A stretch of 64,000 nt of DNA, taken from NCBI RefSeq assembly GCF_000160135.1, contig NZ_GG729936.1, forward strand, positions 90,961 through 154,960. Direction: 5' to 3'. The notes beneath the pieces were generated by a model. It saw only the letters and a list, made by a program, of their open reading frames with translations. It was not told the origin of the DNA and did no database searches. The stretch is from Oribacterium sp. oral taxon 078 str. F0262. Lineage in GTDB: Bacteria > Bacillota > Clostridia > Lachnospirales > Lachnospiraceae. How positions within the stretch are numbered: the first letter of the stretch is position 1; each line of letters opens with the position of its first letter. The position numbers and the translations under genes were made by a program. Shown piece by piece: positions 668 to 24,579 of this stretch.

Positions 668-2047
668 CTATCCTCTCTCCGCGATATCCCTCGCCACAAA
701 GATCCCGCTCGCCGAGGCGTGGGAAAGGGAATGGGTGACGCCGCTCCCGTCTCCGATCACATAGAGTCCGGGATGACAGCTCTCGAGATGAGAGTCGATC
801 GCGACCTCCATATTGTAGAACTTGACCTCGACGCCATAGAGGAGCGTATCCTCATTGGCGGTTCCGGGGGCGATCTTGTCGAGCGCATAGATCATTTCCA
901 TGATGCCGTCCAGAATCCTCTTCGGAAGCACCAGGCTCAGGTCTCCGGGCGTCGCCTTCAGCGTCGGGCGGACGAGCCCCTCCTCGATCCGCTTCACCGT
1001 GCTCCTCCTCCCCCGGACGAGATCCCCGAAGCGCTGCACGATGACGCCGCCCCCCAGCATATTCGAGAGGCGGGCGATGCTCTCCCCGTAGCCGTTGCTG
1101 TCCTTAAAGGGCTCTGAAAAATGCTTTGAGACGAGGAGCGCGAAATTGGTATTCTCCGTGCGCTTCTCCTCCCCCTCATAGCTGTGCCCGTTGACCGTGA
1201 CGATTCCATTGGTATTCTCATTTACGACGATTCCGTACGGATTCATGCAGAAGGTCCGGACATTATCCTCAAAGAGCTGTGTGCGGTAGACGATCTTGCT
1301 CTCATAGAGCTCATCCGTGAGATGCGAGAAGATGACGGCGGGAAGCTCCACCCGGACGCCGAGATCCACGCGGTTTGACTTCGTCGGAATCCCGAGCTCC
1401 CGGCAGACCTTCTCCATCCACTTGCTCCCGCTCCTCCCCACGGAGATGATGCATTTGTCACAGGAGAAGCTCTCCCCCGCCGCGCTCTCGATCCGGTATC
1501 CTCCCTCCTTCCGGGCCTCGACCTTCTCGATCGGCGTGTCAAAATAAAAGTCCGTCGCCTCTTTGAGATCGCGGTACAGATTCCTAAGGACAATATAATT
1601 GATATCCGTCCCCAGGTGCCGCACGGAGGCATCCAGAAGCTTCAGGCGATTCTGCATGCAGATCTTCTTAAAATGCGAGCCCGCGGTGGAAAAAATGCGG
1701 CTCCCCTCTCCCCCCTTTGACATATTGATCTCGTCCACATAGTGCATGAGGGAAAGGGCCTTTTCCCGGCCGATGTACTCATAGAGTGTACCGCCGAAAT
1801 CGTTTGTGATATTGTACTTCCCGTCGGAAAAAGCGCCGGCCCCGCCAAAGCCGCTCATGATGGAGCAGCTTTTACAGTGGATGCAGGACGGGATTTTCTC
1901 CCCATCGATCGGACAGTGCCGCTTCTCCAGACTGTGCCCGGCCTCCATGACCGCGACACTGAGATCGCTTCTCCGCTTTTCGAGCTCATAGGCCGCATAG
2001 ATCCCGCCCGGCCCCGCGCCGATGATAATGATGTCATAGTGCTTCAT
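668..2047 (-). CDS. FAD-dependent oxidoreductase (COG2509-like)
   Basis: Predicted flavoprotein dehydrogenase of 459 residues with unknown substrate. The N-terminus has a Rossmann FAD-binding motif (IIIIGAGPGGIYAAYELE). A family-typical segment follows, with clustered cysteines (CIHCKSC) and FGGAGAFSDGK. The C-terminus has a second FAD motif, GLYVIGDGSGVTHSLSHA. An upstream in-frame extension is open, but the ATG at 2047 is preceded by GGAGGAGACGGAGGGGAT and begins the conserved fold, so it is the start. It follows the LRR gene after about 90 bp. The family resembles uncharacterised dehydrogenases related to geranylgeranyl reductases; the reaction cannot be told from sequence. Confidence 0.85.
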   Translation of the reverse strand: MKHYDIIIIGAGPGGIYAAYELEKRRSDLSVAVMEAGHSLEKRHCPIDGEKIPSCIHCKSCSIMSGFGGAGAFSDGKYNITNDFGGTLYEYIGREKALSLMHYVDEINMSKGGEGSRIFSTAGSHFKKICMQNRLKLLDASVRHLGTDINYIVLRNLYRDLKEATDFYFDTPIEKVEARKEGGYRIESAAGESFSCDKCIISVGRSGSKWMEKVCRELGIPTKSNRVDLGVRVELPAVIFSHLTDELYESKIVYRTQLFEDNVRTFCMNPYGIVVNENTNGIVTVNGHSYEGEEKRTENTNFALLVSKHFSEPFKDSNGYGESIARLSNMLGGGVIVQRFGDLVRGRRSTVKRIEEGLVRPTLKATPGDLSLVLPKRILDGIMEMIYALDKIAPGTANEDTLLYGVEVKFYNMEVAIDSHLESCHPGLYVIGDGSGVTHSLSHASASGIFVARDIAERG

Positions 2048-2138
2048 ATCCCCTCCGTCTCCTCCTGAAATCTCCCGCGCGATGCGCTCTTCCCCCGGAA
2101 AATATCGAATCCTCCCTCTGCCGGAAACGCAGCTTCCG

Positions 2139-2888
2139 CTATTCCCCCTCTTTAGAGGCAGCGGTCTCAAGCTCTGAAAGGCCGCTGAGAGAGCTCAGAT
2201 CCGGAAGCTTCTCCCTCGGAACATCGCGGAGCTTAAGCGTCTGAAGAGAGCGGAGACTCGGCAGAAAGCTGTAGTCCGAGATGGGGTTTCCCTCCAGGCT
2301 CAGGCTTATCAGGGAGAGTCTCCCGGAGAGCGGAGAGAGATCCGAAATCCCCGTATTTATGAGGCTGAGCTCCTCGAGCCCACTGAGGCTTCGGAGAAAG
2401 GAGGCATCCTCAAGCTTCGGCGCATCGGAAATCGAAAGACTCCGAAGATGAGGGAGGGCAGAGAGCGCGCTGTAATCAGAGATCTCCGGGCTGTCCCGGA
2501 TGACGAGCTCAGAAAGGCCGGTCTGTCCGAGGAGAGCGGAGAGATCCGTCTGATTTTCGATGGTCATGCTGCTAAGAAGCGCGGCCTCCGTAGTCTTCTC
2601 CACGGGGGAGGGCGCTGGCTTCCTGAAAAGAAGGAGGCCCGCGAGGGGGACAGCGGTCAGGAGGCCAAGAGAGAGCAGGAAGCCCAAAAGGATGGGGCTT
2701 AGCTCCCGGCTTTGCTCCGGACGGGCCGGGCCTCCGAAATTATTGACGGTCTCCTGGATGAAGACCTTGGCCCTCTCCGGTTCCACCGCAAAATTCGCGT
2801 TGCAGTAGGGGCAGTGCGCGCTCTCCGCGCCCTCCTCCCAGCTCAGATTCCCGCCGCAGCGCGGGCATTTCAGATCGATGATTTTCAT
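2139..2888 (-). CDS. Zinc-ribbon, single-TM, leucine-rich repeat protein (short paralogue)
   Basis: This 249-residue protein has a CxxC...CxxC zinc ribbon (C8, C11, C26, C29), one membrane segment (about 64-88) and an acidic internalin-like LRR domain (about 105-240, with LSAL/L..LSI repeats of about 22 residues). The likely topology puts the zinc ribbon in the cytoplasm and the LRR outside. The gene directly upstream (2935-4884) has the same layout, so the pair looks like a tandem duplication. LRRs usually bind proteins, but no ligand is known. No enzymatic motif is seen. Start ATG 2888 follows GGATGGGAAGCT. Confidence 0.8.
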   Translation of the reverse strand: MKIIDLKCPRCGGNLSWEEGAESAHCPYCNANFAVEPERAKVFIQETVNNFGGPARPEQSRELSPILLGFLLSLGLLTAVPLAGLLLFRKPAPSPVEKTTEAALLSSMTIENQTDLSALLGQTGLSELVIRDSPEISDYSALSALPHLRSLSISDAPKLEDASFLRSLSGLEELSLINTGISDLSPLSGRLSLISLSLEGNPISDYSFLPSLRSLQTLKLRDVPREKLPDLSSLSGLSELETAASKEGE

Positions 2889-2934
2889 AGCTTCCCATCC
2901 TCTCTTTCGAAGCGGCCCCGCATATCTCTAAGAA

Positions 2935-4884
2935 TCACGACAGAATAATGTAGAGATCTCCGGAAAGGGCAGAGCGGTTCTGGATCGGATTCCCCGAAGC
3001 GTCCAGCGTTTTCAGAGCCGGGAGATCCCGGAGCGGCAGAAGGTCTCTCACATAGTTCTCGCTGATATCGAGCGTCTCCAGCTCCGAAAGAGCGCGGAGA
3101 GGCTCCAGGTCGGAGATTCCCTCCTTCACCATCTGAAGGCTTTTTAGCCCGTGAAGGGAGGAAAGCGCCGGGAGGATGCTCTGAAGCTCCGTCTCCCCGC
3201 CTTCTATCCTCGTCCCCTGCGCGTCCCGGACTATGAGCTTGGGGGCCCCGATGAGCGAGAGCTCACGAAGCGTCGAATTGTCCGGGGCGAATCCGTCCGT
3301 CCAATAGATATCATAGCTCCCATAGACGATAAGCTTCTGCAGAGCCGGTGCACAGAGCCAGTGATCCAGCGTAATCCCCTCAAAGCTCATATAGCTTCCC
3401 TGAACGGAGAGCTCCTTCAGTCCGCTCAGAGATTCGCAAAGCTCCCGCGACGCTTCGGCGGAGCCGCCACTCCAGATGCAGAGCTTCTCAAGGCTCGTCT
3501 TCCCGGAAAGGATCTCCAGATCCCCGTCTTCCCCTCCGATAAGCGTGAGATCCGAAAGGGCGGGGGCAGAGACCGCAGAGGGGAGAAAGGATTCGTCAAT
3601 CTCCATCCTCACAAGAGAAGAAAGGGCGGAGAGATCCGGCGTCCCGCCGCCGGTATCGGAGAGGCTCAGCCTCTTAAGTCCTGTGAGAGTCCCTAAGACC
3701 GAGAGATCTGCGATGCTTCCGTCTCGGCTCAGGTAGAGCTCCTGGAGCGCGGTATTTCCCGCAAGAGGCGAGAGATCCCGGAGCTCTGAACCCTCTATGG
3801 AAAGCTTCGAAAGCTCCGGCATGGCCGAAAGGAAAGAGAGATCCTTAAAGCCCTTCCCGGAATAAATGCTGAGCTCCTTGAGATGAGGGAGATGGTAGAG
3901 GATCGAGTAATCTGCCCCGCTTTCTTCCCCGGCATTGAGGGCGAGCTCCTGAAGATTCGCGATGGAGAGGAGATAATCATTGTCCTTCAGAAGGTCGGTG
4001 GAGAGGCGGTGAAGAGAGGAAAGCTCCGAAAGCTTTTTCAAGTCAGGCGCCTTCTCCTGGTACTGATAGGAGCTGAAGCTCCCCGGGCTGAATTCCAGCG
4101 TCTCCAGATTCGGAAAGCTGTCTACGATCTCATCCAGCTGCCAGATCGATGCGCCGCGGAGCGCCTTCAGCTCCTTCGGGCTCGCAAAAAAATCCTTCCA
4201 GTCCGTGATTTGGTAGCTCCAGGAGCTGAGCGTAAAATCCTGAAGCTTTGTGAGATTCCTGAGGGAATTCGAGTATTCTCCCGTTTCCTGCGTGATTCTC
4301 AGGCCGAAGTTCGGATTGACATTCAGGGTCTTAAGAGAGGAGAAGGGCTGAAAATCGCTGATCGGGATCTCCCGATCGGAACCCTCTCCGTCAAGCACAA
4401 CGATATAGTTCCGCTCCTCCTCCCCGGAGAGTCTGACATCGATACGGAAGACCGTCTCCCCATTTGCCGCATCAATCTCATCAGAGGATAAGAAGCAAAG
4501 CTTCTCCACCCTGCCGTATTCTTCTGCCGTGAGCAGATCGGGATCCTTTTGAAAGATTTCTGCGCAGAGCCTTTGCATAAAAGGGGATTCCACCTTCTCC
4601 TGAAAGCTTTCCTTCAAAGGCTCCGCCTTTGGGCTCCGGCGGAAAACCCTGCTGCCGAGCAGGGAGAGAATGACGAGAATACCGAGCAGAGGATAGAGAA
4701 GAAAATGGGAGGAAGCGGGCTTCCCGCCTCCCTCGTAGCGGTTTACCGTCATATTGATCCGGATATCCTTCGCCCTCTCCTCCACAAAAAAATCTGCCCG
4801 GCAATGCGGACAGCTTATCTTCCCCGCGCCCCTGATCAAAATCTCGCTCCCGCAATGCGGACAGCGAATCTTCGTCGGATTCAT
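2935..4884 (-). CDS. Zinc-ribbon, single-TM, leucine-rich repeat protein (long paralogue)
   Basis: This 649-residue protein has the same architecture as its downstream neighbour. A zinc ribbon (C8, C11, C25, C28) is followed by a membrane segment (about 60-78), a linker, then a long LRR region from about residue 180 to the end. Many of the repeats carry the SDLSPL/LKELSI signature of internalin-type LRRs. The conserved stretch between zinc ribbon and membrane (RAKxxxxxxTVN) is shared with the neighbour. GCAGGAGGCAGAGG precedes the ATG at 4884. A sensory or adhesive surface role is possible; nothing in sequence fixes it. Confidence 0.8.
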   Translation of the reverse strand: MNPTKIRCPHCGSEILIRGAGKISCPHCRADFFVEERAKDIRINMTVNRYEGGGKPASSHFLLYPLLGILVILSLLGSRVFRRSPKAEPLKESFQEKVESPFMQRLCAEIFQKDPDLLTAEEYGRVEKLCFLSSDEIDAANGETVFRIDVRLSGEEERNYIVVLDGEGSDREIPISDFQPFSSLKTLNVNPNFGLRITQETGEYSNSLRNLTKLQDFTLSSWSYQITDWKDFFASPKELKALRGASIWQLDEIVDSFPNLETLEFSPGSFSSYQYQEKAPDLKKLSELSSLHRLSTDLLKDNDYLLSIANLQELALNAGEESGADYSILYHLPHLKELSIYSGKGFKDLSFLSAMPELSKLSIEGSELRDLSPLAGNTALQELYLSRDGSIADLSVLGTLTGLKRLSLSDTGGGTPDLSALSSLVRMEIDESFLPSAVSAPALSDLTLIGGEDGDLEILSGKTSLEKLCIWSGGSAEASRELCESLSGLKELSVQGSYMSFEGITLDHWLCAPALQKLIVYGSYDIYWTDGFAPDNSTLRELSLIGAPKLIVRDAQGTRIEGGETELQSILPALSSLHGLKSLQMVKEGISDLEPLRALSELETLDISENYVRDLLPLRDLPALKTLDASGNPIQNRSALSGDLYIILS

Positions 4885-10664: not shown

Positions 10665-12032
10665 TCAGGACTTCTCTCCCTCTTCCTTCTTCTCCGAAGA
10701 CTTCTTTTCGGACTTCTTTTCGGATTTCTTCTCGCTTTTCTTCTCCGGCTTTGTGAGCTTTGCCTCGGAAAGCAGCATATCGACCGTCGCCTGAAGCTCG
10801 AGCTCTCTCCGGACGGATGCCTTCTGGGACTCGCTGACCGTCTTCATGAGATCCTCATACTTCATCTTGTACTGATCCGCGATTTTCTGAAACTCCTCCT
10901 CGACCCGCTCGTCCGGTACCGTGATATTCTCCTTCTTCTGGACCGCCTCGAGCACCAGGGAATTTCGGATGCTTCTCTCCGCGCCCGGCTTCATCTGCTC
11001 CTTCAGCTTCTCCTCGGTCTGTCCGGTGATCTGCATGTACTGCTCGATGGGAATTCCCTGCTGCTGAAGCCGCATCGCGTAGTCCCGGTACATCTGCTCC
11101 AGCTGCTCCTCGAGCATCGGCTCCGGGATATCCAGCTCCGCATTCTCAGCGACCTTATCGATGACGCGGTTCTCATTCTGCAGCGCGGCCTGCTTCTCCT
11201 TCTCCTCCCGGAGTCCCTTCTCGAGCTCCTTCTTGTACTCCTCCAGGGTATCGAACTCGGAGACCTCGGAGGCGAATTCATCGTCCGCCTCCGGAAGCTG
11301 CTTTTCCTTTACGGATTTGATGCTGACCTTGAAGAGCGCCGCCTTTCCGGCGAGCTCCTTCGCCCCGTAATCCTCGGGGAAGCTCACATTGACATCGACC
11401 TCTTCCCCCGCCTTATGGCCGATCAGCTGATCCTCAAAGCCCGGGATAAAGGTCCCGCTCCCGATGGTGAGCGGATAATCCTCTCCCCTTCCGCCGGCGA
11501 ACTCCTCCCCGTCCACAGAGCCCACAAAGTCAATGGAGCTGATATCTCCCTTTTTGATCTCCCGGTCGACATCGATCATGCGGGCGTTCTTCTCCAGCTC
11601 CTGTCTGAGACGATCCTCGACTTCCTTTTCCGTCACCGAAGAATCCGCGCCCTCGACGCCCACTCCCTTGTACTCTCCCAGCTTCACTTCGGGCTTCAGG
11701 GCAACCGTCGCGGTATAAATCAGATTCTTCCCCTTCTCAATCTGCTCCACGGAGATCTCCGGACGGGAGACGATGGAAAGGCCGGACTCCTTCGCGGCAT
11801 CCGGATAGCTCTTGTCCAAAAGCCCGTTCAGGGCATCCTCATAGAAGACCTGCGGACCATACATCTTTTCGATCATCTGCATCGGCGCCCTGCCCCGGCG
11901 AAAGCCCGGAAGATTGAATCTGCCCTTATTCTTTCTGTAGGCCTCCGTAAGCGCCTGATCGAAATCCGCGGCATCCACTTCCACGGTGAGCTTCGCCATG
12001 TTTTTTTCTAAATTTTCAACTTTAACACTCAT
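10665..12032 (-). CDS. tig: Trigger factor (ribosome-associated chaperone, PPIase)
   Basis: Trigger factor of 455 residues. The ribosome-docking signature is GFRRGRAP (near residue 45). The FKBP-type PPIase domain carries VDFVGSVDGEEF...GSGTFIPGFEDQLIG, and a helical C-terminal chaperone domain follows. The last 30 residues are a Lys/Ser/Glu tail with KKSE repeated, which is unusual but not disruptive. ATG 12032 is preceded by GGAGGTG; the in-frame upstream extension is not conserved. A good promoter lies at 12098-12126. Confidence 0.97.
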   Translation of the reverse strand: MSVKVENLEKNMAKLTVEVDAADFDQALTEAYRKNKGRFNLPGFRRGRAPMQMIEKMYGPQVFYEDALNGLLDKSYPDAAKESGLSIVSRPEISVEQIEKGKNLIYTATVALKPEVKLGEYKGVGVEGADSSVTEKEVEDRLRQELEKNARMIDVDREIKKGDISSIDFVGSVDGEEFAGGRGEDYPLTIGSGTFIPGFEDQLIGHKAGEEVDVNVSFPEDYGAKELAGKAALFKVSIKSVKEKQLPEADDEFASEVSEFDTLEEYKKELEKGLREEKEKQAALQNENRVIDKVAENAELDIPEPMLEEQLEQMYRDYAMRLQQQGIPIEQYMQITGQTEEKLKEQMKPGAERSIRNSLVLEAVQKKENITVPDERVEEEFQKIADQYKMKYEDLMKTVSESQKASVRRELELQATVDMLLSEAKLTKPEKKSEKKSEKKSEKKSSEKKEEGEKS

Positions 12033-19926: not shown

Positions 19927-20823
19927 TCAATTCTTTACAGCCTCTCCGCCCTCGACCACGATGGAATCCGGGTCCGTGTCGTCCCCGAAAACCGGCTTCA
20001 GGGTCTCCTCATAGTCCTTATGGAAAAAATTCTCCTTCCCGAGCGCCCGGATCTCCTCATTTAGGAAATCCAGAAGCTCCGTATTGCCCTTCGCGACCGC
20101 GGCCGCAATCGTGTCGTAGTCCCCGAGAGTTTCGATCCCCACCACATAGCCGGGATTCGTCTTCGCCCAGGCTATGACCTCGGTGTTGTCCGTGGAGAAG
20201 GCGTCCCCTCTCCCGTCTAAGAGCGCATTATAGGCGTCCGCGTAGGCATCGTACTTTTGGAGCTTTACCTCGGGATGATTCTTCTCAAAATAAGTCTCCG
20301 CCGTCGTGCCCTTTGCGATGATCAGGGTCTTTCCCTTCAGCTCCTCGACGGATTTGATCTCCTTGTCCTCCGGGGAAACCACGCCGAGCGCGACCTTCAT
20401 ATAGGGAAGCGCGAAATCCACCTGCTCCGCCCTCTCCTTTGTGACCGTAAAATTCGCGAGAGTGATGTCAATCTTTCCGGTGCTCACATATTCCACGCGG
20501 GAGGCCGGGTCCAGGGAGGTAAACTCCGCCTTCACCCCGAGATCCTCCGCGATGCGCCTCGCATAGAAGACATCATAGCCCTGATTCTCCCCCTTCGAAT
20601 CGATATAGCCAAATGGAGCCTTGTCCGTAAAGACACCGATCCGGATCACTCCGGAATTCCGGATCTCCTCCACCGTGCGAAAGGATGCGGATCCCTCCTT
20701 CTTCCCCTCCGCCGCGCTCTGCGCGCTGCTCCCGGTCTTTTCGCTCTGAGAGGCACAGCCGGACAGGGCCCCCGCAAGAAGAAGCGCCGAAAGAAAAACT
20801 GCCGCCGCCATTGATTTTTTCAT
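19927..20823 (-). CDS. Amino acid ABC transporter substrate-binding lipoprotein (probably cysteine type)
   Basis: Substrate-binding protein of 298 residues. A signal peptide ends in the lipobox LSGC (Cys at about residue 23), so it is membrane-anchored outside the cell. The SBP_bac_3 fold is complete (IRIGVFTDKAPFGYID, ITLANFTVTKERAEQVDFALPY). The C-terminus (LKPVFGDDTDPDSIVVEGG) resembles that of cysteine-binding CjaA-type proteins, from memory rather than a search. It is the last gene of the operon. The Cys-rich leader peptide upstream supports a cysteine or cystine substrate. Confidence 0.92.
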   Translation of the reverse strand: MKKSMAAAVFLSALLLAGALSGCASQSEKTGSSAQSAAEGKKEGSASFRTVEEIRNSGVIRIGVFTDKAPFGYIDSKGENQGYDVFYARRIAEDLGVKAEFTSLDPASRVEYVSTGKIDITLANFTVTKERAEQVDFALPYMKVALGVVSPEDKEIKSVEELKGKTLIIAKGTTAETYFEKNHPEVKLQKYDAYADAYNALLDGRGDAFSTDNTEVIAWAKTNPGYVVGIETLGDYDTIAAAVAKGNTELLDFLNEEIRALGKENFFHKDYEETLKPVFGDDTDPDSIVVEGGEAVKN

Positions 20824-20966: not shown

Positions 20967-21734
20967 TCACTCTCTTCCCTTCTTTTTGGAGGAGAAGAGG
21001 AAGTTCCCGAGGAAGTCTCTCGCCCTCTCCGTCTTCGGAGCCGTAAAAAAGGCTTCGGGCTCCCCGCTCTCCGCGATATTCCCCTGATCCATGAAGAGGA
21101 TCCTGTCCGCGACCGCCCGGGCGAAGGCCAGCTCATGCGTGACGATCAGCATCGTCATCCCCCGCTCGGAGAGCTCCATCATGACATCGAGAACCTCCCT
21201 GACCATCTCCGGGTCCAGCGCGGCCGTGACCTCATCAAAGAGCATCATCTCCGGGTGCATGGCCAGGGCCCGCACAATTGCGACCCTCTGCTTCTGCCCT
21301 CCGGAGAGCATCCTGGGGTAGGCCTTCTCCTTCTCCGACAGATTCACCCTGAGGAGAAGCTCCCTCGCCTCCCGCTCGGCCTCCGCCCTCCCCTTTCTCT
21401 GCACCCGGATCGGCGCGAGCGTGATATTCTCCAGGACTGTCATGTGGGGGAAAAGCTCGTAGCTTTGGAATACCATGCCGAGCTTCTGCCGGATCTTCGG
21501 AAGCTCCCTCGGGTTCCCGCTGATGAGCTCTCCGTCCAGGCGGATGCTCCCCCCGTCGATCCTCTCCAGACCATTGATGCAGCGGAGCAGGGTCGACTTC
21601 CCGCAGCCGGAGGGCCCGAGGAGGACGAGCACCTCTCCCCTTTTCACATCCAGATCGATCCCTCTGAGAATCGCATTTCCCGACTCATAGCTCTTATGGA
21701 GATTTCTGATAGAAAGAAGAACATCTTCCGTCAT
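20967..21734 (-). CDS. Polar amino acid ABC transporter ATPase
   Basis: ABC ATPase of 255 residues energising the adjacent transporter. Walker A is GPSGCGKST (40-48). The Q-loop ([15 protein letters not shown]), signature [15 protein letters not shown] and Walker B ([14 protein letters not shown]) are intact, with the H-loop in IVTHEL. It belongs to the polar amino acid uptake subfamily. ATG 21734 follows GAGGGGAAGGGAAATC; a longer frame is open but lacks an SD. It lies between the second permease and the binding protein. Confidence 0.96.
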
Positions 21735-21822: not shown

Positions 21823-22563
21823 TCAGTCCCTCCACCTTTTTTCCAGACAGCCCGCGAAAAGAGAGATCGGCCAGCACACCAGAAAGTAGAGGAGGAAGAT
21901 CACGCCATAGATCGGAAGCGCCGCCGTCGGGTAGCGGAAGCGGTTCGCATCGATGATCTGCTGCCCTGTCTTAAGGACCTCCACGACTCCGATCAGGACG
22001 ACCAGGGAGCTCGTCTTTACCATTCTCGTCACAAGATTGATGGCGAGAGGGATCAGACGCCGGACCGTCTGGGGTATGATGATGAAAAATGCGGTCTGAA
22101 GCGGCGTCAGGCCGAGTGCCGCAGCGCTCTCATACTGTATCCTCGGTATGCTGACAAGCGCCCCTCTCACAAGATCCCCGAGCTCCGCCGTCCCCCAGAG
22201 GACGAAGACGATGACCGCACTCAGCTCCCCGGAGAGGCTCAGAGCGAAGGCCCGTGCCGTTCCGAAATAGACCAGGAAGAGGAGCACAAGCTGCGGCATG
22301 ATCCGGATAAAGTCGAGATAGATCCGGCTCAGCGCCTTTGTAAGGGGATTCCTTCTCGTCATGAGCATGCCAAAGAGGATGCCGAGCGGAAGGGAGAGCG
22401 CCGCGGAGAGGAGGCTGATCCGGATCGTCACAAAAAGCCCCCCCATCAGCCTCTCGAAATTATTTCCGTCAAAGAGGATGCCGATGCCCCGCTCTCTCCC
22501 GCCCGTATTTTGCAAAGAGAGAAGCGAAGAAAGAGAAAAGAGCTCAATCGCCGAAGCCCGCAT
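21823..22563 (-). CDS. Amino acid ABC transporter permease (second)
   Basis: Permease of 246 residues with about five membrane segments. The HisM-type EAA loop is [21 protein letters not shown], which docks the ATPase. Start ATG 22563 follows GGAAAGGAGGCTTCGCT. It overlaps the end of the first permease by 20 bp, so the two are translationally coupled. They probably form a heterodimeric channel. Confidence 0.94.
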
Positions 22564-23203
22564 AGCGAAGCCTCCTTTCCAGGAGAGTTCCGAGAATAGA
22601 GATCGGAAGCAAAAGCACAAGATAAGAGAGGACCAGCATAAAGAGCGCCTCCTCGGTCTGATAATAAAGGCCGATCAGATCCTTCGCCACATACATAAGA
22701 TCCGCCAGAGCAATCGCGGAGAAGACGGAGGTCTCCTTGATGAGGAAGATCACATTCGCGACGAGGGAGGGGACAGAGAGCGCGAGAGCCTGCGGGAAGA
22801 TCACATAGCCCATGCTCTGAAGCGGCGTGAGCCCAAGAGACAGCGCCGCCTCCCTCTGGACCCCCTCCACGGCCTCCAGCCCCGCCCGGAAGCTCTCCGT
22901 CATATAGGCTCCGCCCAGAAAGCTCAGTCCCACGACGCCGCAGAGGGCGGAGCTCATCCGGATTCCAAGCTTCGGAAGTCCGAAATAGAGAAAGAAGAGC
23001 TGGACGAGGAGAGGGGTATTCCGAGACAATTCCACATAGGCCGAAGCGATCCGGCGGAGGATGGGAAGCTTATAGTATTCTGTGACACTGCAAAGCGCTC
23101 CGATCAGAACGGAAAAGAGGATGCCGAGCGCTGCGATCCCCAGAGTCAGCCTCGCCGCGTCAAAATACATCGGTGCAAATCTTCGAATAAATGAAAAATC
23201 CAC
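22544..23203 (-). CDS. Amino acid ABC transporter permease (first gene of operon)
   Basis: Permease of 219 residues, HisM/GlnP type, with ELSRNTPLLVQLFFLYFGLP and the EAA loop EAALSLGLTPLQSMGYVIFPQ. The start is GTG 23203, preceded by GGAAAGGAGGCAGC. No ATG is available near the conserved N-terminus. It is the first structural gene after a 270-nt leader that contains a short Cys-rich ORF and a terminator-like hairpin. Confidence 0.93.
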   Translation of the reverse strand: MDFSFIRRFAPMYFDAARLTLGIAALGILFSVLIGALCSVTEYYKLPILRRIASAYVELSRNTPLLVQLFFLYFGLPKLGIRMSSALCGVVGLSFLGGAYMTESFRAGLEAVEGVQREAALSLGLTPLQSMGYVIFPQALALSVPSLVANVIFLIKETSVFSAIALADLMYVAKDLIGLYYQTEEALFMLVLSYLVLLLPISILGTLLERRLRYAGFGD

Positions 23204-23273: not shown

Positions 23274-23307
23274 AAAAAGGGAGGAGCAGGTCCTGCCTGC
23301 TCCTCCC
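23274..23307 (-). terminator. Attenuator/terminator hairpin before the ABC transporter operon
   Basis: GGGAGGAGCAGG and CCTGCTCCTCCC form a perfect 12-bp stem with a 5-base loop, followed on the minus strand by TTTTTACG. It lies 35 nt after the stop codon of the leader ORF and about 70 nt before the first permease. It could also just terminate the sortase transcript. But a strong promoter lies between the two, which favours a leader attenuator. Confidence 0.8.
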
Positions 23308-23342
23308 TGGAATACGCGAAATCCGCGCGCGGCAAAGGCCTC

Positions 23343-23402
23343 CTATGCGTCACACATACGGAGGCAACAAGAAAAGATCATCTCTTTTTTCTGCTTTGCC
23401 AT
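23343..23402 (-). CDS. Cys-rich leader peptide of the ABC transporter operon
   Basis: A 19-residue ORF, MAKQKKEMIFSCCLRMCDA, with ATG at 23402 and TAG at 23343-23345. AGAGGAG lies 6 bases before the ATG, so it should be translated. Three of nineteen codons are cysteine (TGT, TGC, TGT), two of them adjacent. The codons overlap a hairpin, and a terminator-like hairpin follows. This is the arrangement expected if slow Cys-tRNA supply stalls the ribosome and changes RNA folding. The downstream transporter is of the cysteine-binding type. Function is inferred. Confidence 0.65.
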   Translation of the reverse strand: MAKQKKEMIFSCCLRMCDA

Positions 23403-23470: not shown

Positions 23471-23509
23471 CTGATAGAGATTCTATCATCTGCCGCCCTC
23501 TCCTGTCAA
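23471..23509 (-). promoter_or_regulatory. Promoter and operator of the ABC transporter operon
   Basis: TTGACA (23504-23509) and TAGAAT (23480-23485) are spaced 18 bp apart. The -10 box is inside an inverted repeat (TGATAGA 23472-23478, TCTATCA 23482-23488 on the plus strand). Half-sites and distance from the -35 box are the same as in the AIM24-type promoter, which suggests one shared regulator. Confidence 0.7.
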
Positions 23510-23545: not shown

Positions 23546-24391
23546 TCACTGCGCATCCCCCTCCTGCCACTGCTCCACCAGCGCCGCCTGGACGAGAAGT
23601 CTCTTCCCCGCACTTCCCGGACCGGAGCAGGTGGAGAGGGTGAGGAGCTTTGGCTTCTCCGTGAAGTCGATGCCGGTCTCTGCCTGCTCCGGGGCGGCGG
23701 AGCGCTTCAGGCTCCGCTCCACATAGCTCTCATAGTCCGCCTCCGTCACATCCTGATAGACCGCATCCTCTACGTCGGTGACGAAATAGGAGAAGATCCG
23801 GTATTTCCGGATGCCGTCCGGCCGACAGAGGTAGAGATAGGGATTGGAGGATGCGAGCTCGGGGTCCTTCAGGAGAAGCTTCAGCTTTCCGAACATGGAG
23901 CCGTTTTTCATATTGTGTCCGAAGACAAAGGTATTGAGATCGCTGTAGTCCTTTGAGGCCGCCGCATCCAAAAAGATCGAGCCCGCCGCATTGGACTTTC
24001 CCTCGAAGGATCGGTGCATATAGTCCTCATTGTCCTTTCCGGCCGCAATCGGATAGCGGAGGTCCAGAGCGGGAAAATAGAGAACCGCGGAGAAGTCCGG
24101 ATTCACCTTCTGGAGGGCCGCATAGTCGATCTTAAGCTCCGGGCGCTCGCTCTCTCCGCTCTCTGCCTTCTCCGTGCTCTCCTCCGTCTCTCCGCTCTCC
24201 GTTCCGACTTCGATATGTTCGCGAAGCGATGCGTACTCCTGATCCGCCGCCCTGTACTCCCTGTACTCCTTCAGAAAAAGGGAGCCAAAGAGAAGGATCC
24301 CCGCGGCAGACAAAAGGAGCAGCAGCCGGAAGATCCAAAGATTTCTTCCCCGAAGCTGCTTCTTCCCTCTGCTCCTCTTCCTCTCATCCAT
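23546..24391 (-). CDS. srtB: Class B sortase
   Basis: Sortase of 281 residues with an N-terminal membrane anchor (about 18-41), an acidic Ser/Glu linker (62-85) and a class B catalytic domain. Catalytic residues are His159 (VFGHNM), Cys255 (TLSTC) and Arg264 (SAGKRLLVQ). It attaches proteins to peptidoglycan or other amine acceptors. The ATG at 24391 is chosen over the one at 24409, because the sequence from 24409 itself provides the SD GGAGGAGG. No sortase substrate is seen nearby. Tandem 33-bp repeats lie just upstream. Confidence 0.93.
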   Translation of the reverse strand: MDERKRSRGKKQLRGRNLWIFRLLLLLSAAGILLFGSLFLKEYREYRAADQEYASLREHIEVGTESGETEESTEKAESGESERPELKIDYAALQKVNPDFSAVLYFPALDLRYPIAAGKDNEDYMHRSFEGKSNAAGSIFLDAAASKDYSDLNTFVFGHNMKNGSMFGKLKLLLKDPELASSNPYLYLCRPDGIRKYRIFSYFVTDVEDAVYQDVTEADYESYVERSLKRSAAPEQAETGIDFTEKPKLLTLSTCSGPGSAGKRLLVQAALVEQWQEGDAQ

Positions 24392-24414
24392 CTTTTTCGC
24401 CTCCTCCATGCGCC

Positions 24415-24579
24415 GATCTGACTTCCGCTGCCTGGTCCGGGCCTTTCGATCTGACTTCTGCTGCCTGATCCGGGTCTTCCCGTCCGGCTTCCGCTGCCTG
24501 ATCCGAGCCTTTCGATCTGACTTCTGCTGTCTGACCCGGGCCCTCCGATCCGGCTTTTTGCTGTCTGATCCCCGTTTTC
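24415..24579 (-). repeat. 33-bp tandem repeats upstream of the sortase gene
   Basis: Five imperfect copies of a 33-bp unit (plus strand GATCTGACTTCTGCTGCCTG plus 13 bases) fill most of the gap between the YitT gene and sortase. The unit length keeps frames open, and 11-residue repeats appear in translation. No ATG, GTG or TTG in the sortase frame lies upstream, so they are probably untranslated leader or spacer. Confidence 0.9.

Follow-up and report, generated by a model that had tools for sequence, protein, structure and literature searches.

Cysteine metabolism in Firmicutes is usually described as regulated through CymR repression and T-boxes. In the trp-type attenuators of enterobacteria, a leader ORF with codons for the regulated amino acid is combined with a terminator and a mutually exclusive antiterminator. 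For cysteine, leaders of this general kind are known from Mycobacterium, where a short cysteine-sensing ORF with runs of Cys codons precedes sulfur-assimilation genes (Seliverstov et al. 2005, PMC1262725); the portion of that paper at hand reports no conserved terminator hairpin, and the polycysteine leaders of Mycobacterium are leaderless according to the title of Canestrari et al. 2020 (cited in PMC13236596). Furthermore, as far as the available parts of these sources go, ribosome-mediated attenuation has been proposed for the uORFC-8-2 motif before cysS in Rhodobacterales (PMC8632094), and hisS/hisZ in bacilli possess a histidine leader-peptide attenuator (PMC2965389). A literature search that covered few subscription journals found, among the papers listed, no cysteine leader or attenuator in Firmicutes, Clostridia or Lachnospiraceae.

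Here we analysed a stretch of 64,000 nucleotides from Oribacterium sp. oral taxon 078 str. F0262 (the window), in which a short Cys-containing ORF and an intrinsic terminator precede an amino acid ABC transporter operon. This arrangement quite likely represents a cysteine-responsive ribosome-mediated transcription attenuator before a probable L-cysteine importer operon. Judged from the sequences, cysteine-responsive attenuation appears well supported at the level of the family (Lachnospiraceae) and probable for the window copy. The features concerned are the following:

23546-24409, minus strand: sortase-like gene, upstream of the leader
23480..23509, minus strand: sigma-70-like promoter TTGACA-18-TAGAAT, with a TG preceding the -10 element (11 of 12 matches)
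23413-23409, minus strand: Shine-Dalgarno sequence AGGAG of the leader ORF, 6 nt 5' of the ATG (from the sequence)
23343..23402, minus strand: leader ORF MAKQKKEMIFSCCLRMCDA, 19 codons, ATG at 23402, TAG at 23345-23343 (from the sequence)
23360..23371, minus strand: sole candidate antiterminator strand CUUGUUGCCUCC, which could pair with 23306-23296
23364..23369, minus strand: tandem Cys codons 12 and 13 (TGT TGC), proposed sensing codons (from the sequence and the Cys runs in relatives)
23352..23354, minus strand: third Cys codon TGT (codon 17; from the sequence)
23338..23365, minus strand: first hairpin, GCCUCC-G-UAUGUG/CGCAUA-GGAGGC (folding, -16.6 kcal/mol)
23274..23308, minus strand: intrinsic terminator, 13 bp perfect, 5-nt loop, T tract (folding, -26.8 kcal/mol)
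22544..23203, minus strand: ABC permease 1 (BPD_transp_1), GTG start (domain match)
21823..22563, minus strand: ABC permease 2 (BPD_transp_1; domain match)
20967..21734, minus strand: ABC ATPase, polar amino acid type (domain match; tested one codon longer, from 21737)
19927..20823, minus strand: solute-binding protein (SBP_bac_3; closest solved structures 1xt8 and 2yjp)

The initial annotation had described a 19-codon ORF with a strong Shine-Dalgarno sequence, Cys-Cys and one further Cys, overlapping a hairpin, and our analysis agrees: Cys occupies codons 12, 13 and 17, and the first hairpin, which holds the stop codon in its 3' strand, includes most of Cys codon 17 in its 5' strand and reaches into Cys codon 13. 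Downstream of the ORF, the hairpin followed by a T tract was found as annotated, but with 13 instead of 12 bp and a gap of 34 instead of 35 nt to the leader stop (hairpin 23308-23278, T at 23278-23274); among 40 terminators examined it is the strongest. The leader keeps Cys-Cys-x-R-M-Cys, after which the frame soon ends. The promoter-type match was found once versus 0.2 times expected in shuffles of the region, and a transcription start would be expected near 23473. The 161-nt leader folds with -69.4 kcal/mol (shuffle mean -48.6, z -5.5), a value equalled by none of 200 shuffles. When the 450 nt upstream of the first operon gene were shuffled by mononucleotides, a Cys-dense ORF (SD-preceded, ATG start, 8-30 aa, at least three Cys in eight residues) appeared in 11 of 2000 cases; each strand of the entire window carries one such ORF, namely the leader ORF (minus) and an ORF at 11035 (plus). 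The window therefore possesses a leader ORF with a Shine-Dalgarno sequence (translatable by sequence), a concentration of Cys codons in it, and a terminator before the first gene. Note that a 33-bp tandem repeat (4.2 copies, 24413-24571) lies directly upstream of the start of the sortase-like gene.

The resemblance of the solute-binding protein to cysteine-binding CjaA-type proteins, also suggested in the initial annotation, was borne out at the sequence level. Its best matches among solved structures are 1xt8 (E 8e-87) and 2yjp (E 1e-77), described in the accessible parts of the respective papers as the cysteine-binding protein of C. jejuni (PMC4757695) and the L-cysteine binding protein of N. 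gonorrhoeae (PMC7170509); the next best reaches 1e-39. As none of the four operon proteins reached an NCBIfam equivalog cut-off, the ligand is deduced from relatedness, and the operon probably encodes an L-cysteine ABC importer.

A DNA-similarity search with the window leader returned only its own copy in the genus (1 of 17 genomes), and conservation was therefore read from orthologous operons. Permease 1 gave 42 close matches including its own (E 4e-68 or better) in 200 family genomes searched; in the genus, 7 of 17 genomes gave matches (own included). We examined the 450 nt 5' of the first operon gene at 48 orthologous loci (47 relatives and the window). An SD-preceded Cys-dense ORF (at least three Cys in eight) was present upstream of 21 of them, compared with a mean of 0.85 and a maximum of 3 in shuffles; at a threshold of at least four Cys in eight, 15 of 48 operons were positive and none in 20 shuffle rounds. 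The check named in the initial annotation, conservation of the ORF and its Cys codons, thus gave Cys-dense ORFs at the same place in part of the relatives. With the lower threshold, the other two-codon residues gave 9 (Lys), 5 (Glu), 3 (Asn), 2 (Phe), 2 (Tyr), 1 (Asp), 1 (His) and 1 (Gln) of 48 loci, and the highest values for the remaining residues were 14 (Leu), 11 (Arg) and 10 (Met). A Cys-dense leader is absent from 27 of the 48 operons, and three of the 21 positive loci (L055, L063, L079), with scattered Cys and GTG/TTG starts, are probably due to chance.

Within the genus, five of the seven permease-bearing genomes (the window's included) have a Cys-dense leader, e.g. MTFRSNRNMNTCCCCCCCMACHRASLMC (L080) and leaders ending in NQACCCCCCCMDIHIAALACR (L081), NCCCCCCRMHSHRAFCRAS (L083) and CCTLCCMCCCTHASFC (L082). 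These four relatives carry 7 to 9 Cys per leader versus 3 in the window, and runs in relatives' leaders reach seven consecutive Cys codons. In L080 (-11.0 kcal/mol), L081 (-14.4 kcal/mol) and L083 (-8.9 kcal/mol), but not in L082 (-3.9 kcal/mol), the Cys run ends at a hairpin similar to that of the window. The nearest relatives found have 74% identity. The leader of L081 is the same as that of Oribacterium sp. UBA6992 (L188). The operon order varies among genomes, with the solute-binding protein gene first or last, and the Cys leader is located 5' of the first gene. In named genomes, 17 of 80 loci (77 with at least 250 nt upstream) possess a Cys-dense ORF, one of which (L189) is probably a chance occurrence; the cultured Anaerocolumna sedimenticola and Lacrimispora xylanisolvens are among the carriers, both without a match to the canonical model described below. 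No Cys-dense ORF was found in the 10 Streptococcus records among these 80 loci.

Several leaders share a motif, from which we derived a DNA pattern for C-R-M-x-x-S-R/Q-A; the canonical nucleotide form is UGU-CGA-AUG-N5-CUCCCRGGCA. A search of 397 family genomes with this pattern gave 49 matches, distributed over 42 genomes; the backwards control gave 5. Of the 46 matches that were read, at least 32 are situated in leaders with at least two Cys, in at least 28 genomes and with at most three per genome. The first ORF downstream of the 26 newly found leaders is, by appearance, an O-acetylhomoserine sulfhydrylase (14), a related enzyme (1), a cystathionine lyase (1), cysK (1), MetQ (2), a cysteine-type binding protein (4), a cyclase (1) or an unnamed protein (2). 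Seven downstream proteins of pattern-found leaders and one from the covariance search (L288) were checked against NCBIfam and Pfam. CysK (L089) and O-acetylhomoserine sulfhydrylase (L105) passed NCBIfam cut-offs; Pfam or NCBIfam matches below the cut-off identified an MetQ/NlpA lipoprotein (L095), Cys/Met metabolism PLP enzymes (L102, L109), MetN with a NIL domain (L288) and SBP_bac_3 with NlpA (L094), and L113 is a cyclase by Pfam alone. In L094, a single ORF (1728-3023) combines a cysteine-type SBP_bac_3 domain with the beginning of an NlpA/MetQ lipoprotein domain; either two binding proteins are fused here, or the sequences were joined during sequencing.

Among 391 genomes of the class, 7 contain a stricter pattern, which had no backwards matches; these genomes belong to three genera, all outside the window's family, and all eight places read as C-R-M leaders. 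Another family of Clostridia also has a canonical Cys leader (L181), located 5' of several genes, one of which appears to resemble glutamate-cysteine ligase. A covariance model defined here (R1, Clostridial C-R-M / S-R-A cysteine attenuator RNA) has matches in 24 of 200 family genomes; among 18 sources (the window and 17 loci) it matched five at E up to 1, all of them loci. No Rfam 15 family reached its gathering score at 20 relative loci of both leader kinds. With these counts, the assumption of the initial annotation that such attenuation is rare in Firmicutes fails for the window's family. Cys is found within the last two residues in 14 of 52 leaders, often as CGA-UGU-stop (e.g. L105, L111, L115, L183, L184, L186), and this terminal Cys codon at the leader stop is possibly a second sensing codon.

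The S-R-A or S-Q-A codons of canonical leaders are complementary to the 5' arm of the terminator; 39 of 40 such leaders had a terminator recognisable from its hairpin and U tract. In these 39 unselected leaders, placed in the best-matching register, the Arg/Gln position forms a G-C pair in 29, a G-U pair in 3 and an A-U pair in 7, and it is never unpaired (Fisher p 8e-6). The antiterminator helix, CUCCCRGGCA/UGCCYGGGAG plus AUGGC/GCCAU, was evaluated in an alignment (A2) of 32 of the 39 canonical leaders with terminator, omitting L045, L046, L089, L109, L120 and L181 (fewer than 9 of 10 matches) as well as L095; the 100% pairing of helix 1 in A2 is a consequence of this selection. It comprises 15 pairs with 93.3% of cells paired and compensatory changes on both sides at seven pairs; none of 500 shuffles equals it, and slid versions are 21-48% paired. 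In single leaders, the segment pairs better than shuffled segments with p below 0.05 in 23 of 40. These canonical relatives thus possess an antiterminator that would exclude the terminator, and the conserved peptide S-R-A is best explained by RNA pairing, considering its covariation with the terminator arm.

Taking the first base of the last Cys codon as reference, the antiterminator strand of canonical leaders starts 14 nt further 3'. This spacing is fixed by the search pattern in pattern-found leaders, but it is also present in four leaders predating the pattern (L047, L070, L072, L077). A ribosome with a codon in the A site covers ~12 nt beyond the first base of that codon, and the strand would therefore start where the mRNA leaves the stalled ribosome. 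All 32 rows of A2 share an identical CGAAUG directly after the last Cys codon (columns 4-9), although the family search pattern permitted other Arg codons; no pairing accounts for it. A protector hairpin P1 (CGAAUGC/GCGUUCG plus CCCGG/CYGGG), with which the switch would be purely structural, folds in single sequences (e.g. L108, L117, L127) but was rejected, as its covariation was unsupportive (128 of 500 shuffles equal).

From these features we infer stalling at Cys codons, antitermination and cysteine as the signal. While RNA polymerase transcribes the leader, a ribosome would translate the Cys-containing ORF. With ample Cys-tRNA it would move on, the terminator hairpin would form and the transporter genes would be off. 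If charged tRNA-Cys is scarce, the ribosome would stall at the Cys codons, and in the canonical relatives the following S-R/Q-A codons (CUCCCRGGCA) would be left free to pair with the terminator 5' arm UGCCYGGGAG; the terminator could then not form, and the operon would be transcribed. Masking of CUCCCGGGCA in a canonical leader would favour termination. The window copy may still work in this way, through a putative antiterminator of its own. We consider it likely that one undescribed attenuator RNA family controls a cysteine/methionine regulon in Lachnospiraceae and some other Clostridia, that the S-R-A codons of the leader double as the antiterminator, adjoining the edge of a ribosome that has stalled at the last Cys codon, and that the Oribacterium-like lineage of the window has a rewired form without the canonical antiterminator. 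The proposed regulon comprises cysteine import, cysK, O-acetylhomoserine sulfhydrylase, cystathionine lyase and MetQ/MetN, i.e., targets that concern the same amino acid as the leader codons, as does the cysteine-clade binding protein of the window.

The alternative pairing could not be made out by eye in the initial annotation, and computation did not reveal a significant antiterminator in the window either. The RNA following the Cys codons pairs with the terminator no better than shuffles (p 0.95, 0.84, 0.60). The candidate pairing of CUUGUUGCCUCC with GGAGGAGCAGG has -15.2 kcal/mol and is the first of 15 leaders on the window terminator arm; its longer form reaches -17.0 kcal/mol (p 0.116), and tests of the best overlapping strand against shuffles gave p 0.116 and 0.176. 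This candidate strand would be masked by a stalled ribosome, since it overlaps the Cys codons. When terminator arms were combined with leaders of other species, the own leader came first in 4 of 15 cases (including the window) and took the second or third place in 3, with a lower rank in the remaining 8. The canonical helix is also missing in the four genus relatives, where the best p for RNA after the Cys codons was 0.066 (L081), 0.124 (L080), 0.138 (L083) and 0.493 (L082). With model R1, the window was not matched up to E 1, and scoring 16 of the 424 first-look candidates in its genome yielded no hit at E 0.001; the canonical C-R-M pattern is absent from this genome. The window copy may work like a canonical attenuator RNA but lies outside the canonical class as delimited by R1. 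Two distant O-acetylhomoserine sulfhydrylase-like genes of the genome have no Cys ORF upstream, and no cysK homologue was found in it at E 1e-40; in the genus, an SD-preceded Cys-dense ORF is located at 1 of 30 O-acetylhomoserine sulfhydrylase-like loci and 2 of 11 cysK loci.

Structure prediction for both states, another check named in the initial annotation, did not separate them. In an equilibrium model with a ribosome mask, the value was higher for the stalled ribosome in 20 of 40 leaders (by more than 0.2 in 4, the reverse in 2), and 'stalled on Cys' and 'at the stop' were not distinguished, because upstream RNA largely occupies the terminator arm under every mask in most leaders. The choice between the two states would thus have to be kinetic. 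For the window, the terminator probability was 0.96-0.99 at every codon. Note that the automatic choice of the Cys cluster in the terminator scan and the mask model took the late cluster in L102 and L104 and the early one in L129a.

The cysteine-sensing ribosome-mediated attenuation put forward in the initial annotation is accordingly supported in the relatives by Cys leaders, terminators, the covarying antiterminator, target genes and the binding protein clade, but not by an antiterminator or an R1 match in the window. For this reason attenuation by the window copy is regarded as probable, and decay or rewiring is its main rival. The leader would then be a remnant of a polycysteine attenuator, the terminator of which merely lowers or insulates expression without cysteine sensing. 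The smaller number of Cys residues than in the four genus relatives and the stop codon soon after Cys-Cys fit such a remnant, as do the missing antiterminator and model match. However, the tandem Cys codons, the strong Shine-Dalgarno sequence, the promoter, the hairpin containing Cys codons and the very strong terminator have all been retained, and the shuffles make such an ORF unlikely to arise by chance; we regard loss of sensing as unlikely. That the ORF stands by pure chance beside the terminator of the sortase-like gene, which is indeed encoded upstream on the same strand (24409-23546), is very improbable, given a good promoter between the stop codon of this gene and the leader and the presence of Cys leaders at the same place in relatives.

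Alternatively, the leader peptide could be a regulatory arrest peptide or act on translation of the first gene instead of termination, which might explain the invariant CGAAUG and the four of 44 leaders in which the scan found no terminator. As the other 40 of 44 have one and the leader strand covaries with the terminator arm, this explanation appears improbable. Control of the operon by a cysteine T-box (RF00230) or another riboswitch, with the ORF being incidental, is the least probable of all: T-boxes are common in the genus (17 of 17 genomes, E 0.001), but neither the window leader nor the 20 relative loci gave an Rfam match at gathering score, and none of the three T-boxes found in the window's genome (L135, L136, L137) is located at cysteine genes. 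Named by the look of their translations, the genes following these T-boxes are a bile-acid/Na+-symporter-like gene (after a ThrS-like end), a TrpX-like binding protein gene and trpB/trpA-like genes. The only Rfam gathering-score match in the window is a Clostridiales-1 RNA (RF01699; 7486-7650, minus strand, 78.2 bits).

Cysteine-responsive attenuation thus remains the preferred reading, and the richer leaders before many cysteine genes in related gut bacteria suggest a little-known ribosome-based sensing of cysteine shortage. Gut Clostridia would then possess a separate system for sensing cysteine, namely a family of leader-peptide attenuators in which the antiterminator is defined. The genes taking part in their cysteine response can be predicted from this family, and ordinary reporters would suffice to test it.

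Among the known systems, the mycobacterial polycysteine leaders, as far as they are described in the parts of the sources used, are alike in having a short ORF with Cys runs and in sensing cysteine before sulfur genes. In contrast to them, the window has a Shine-Dalgarno sequence and an intrinsic terminator, which rules out a leaderless polycysteine uORF of the mycobacterial type, and the relatives add a covarying antiterminator. The uORFC-8-2 motif, compared here from its partial description only, is similar in its tandem Cys codons in a short ORF, the stem holding these codons and the U run; it belongs to a different phylum and has cysS as its target, whereas the relatives of the window have such leaders before several cysteine and methionine genes. 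The attenuator of hisS/hisZ, also compared by description in part of the source, is likewise a Firmicutes leader-peptide attenuator replacing a T-box, but for another amino acid and other genes. With the trp-type attenuators, the leaders share sensing codons in a leader ORF, a terminator and an exclusive antiterminator. However, the antiterminator strand of the canonical relatives is located inside the leader ORF, after the sensing codons, and its partner is the 5' arm of the terminator.
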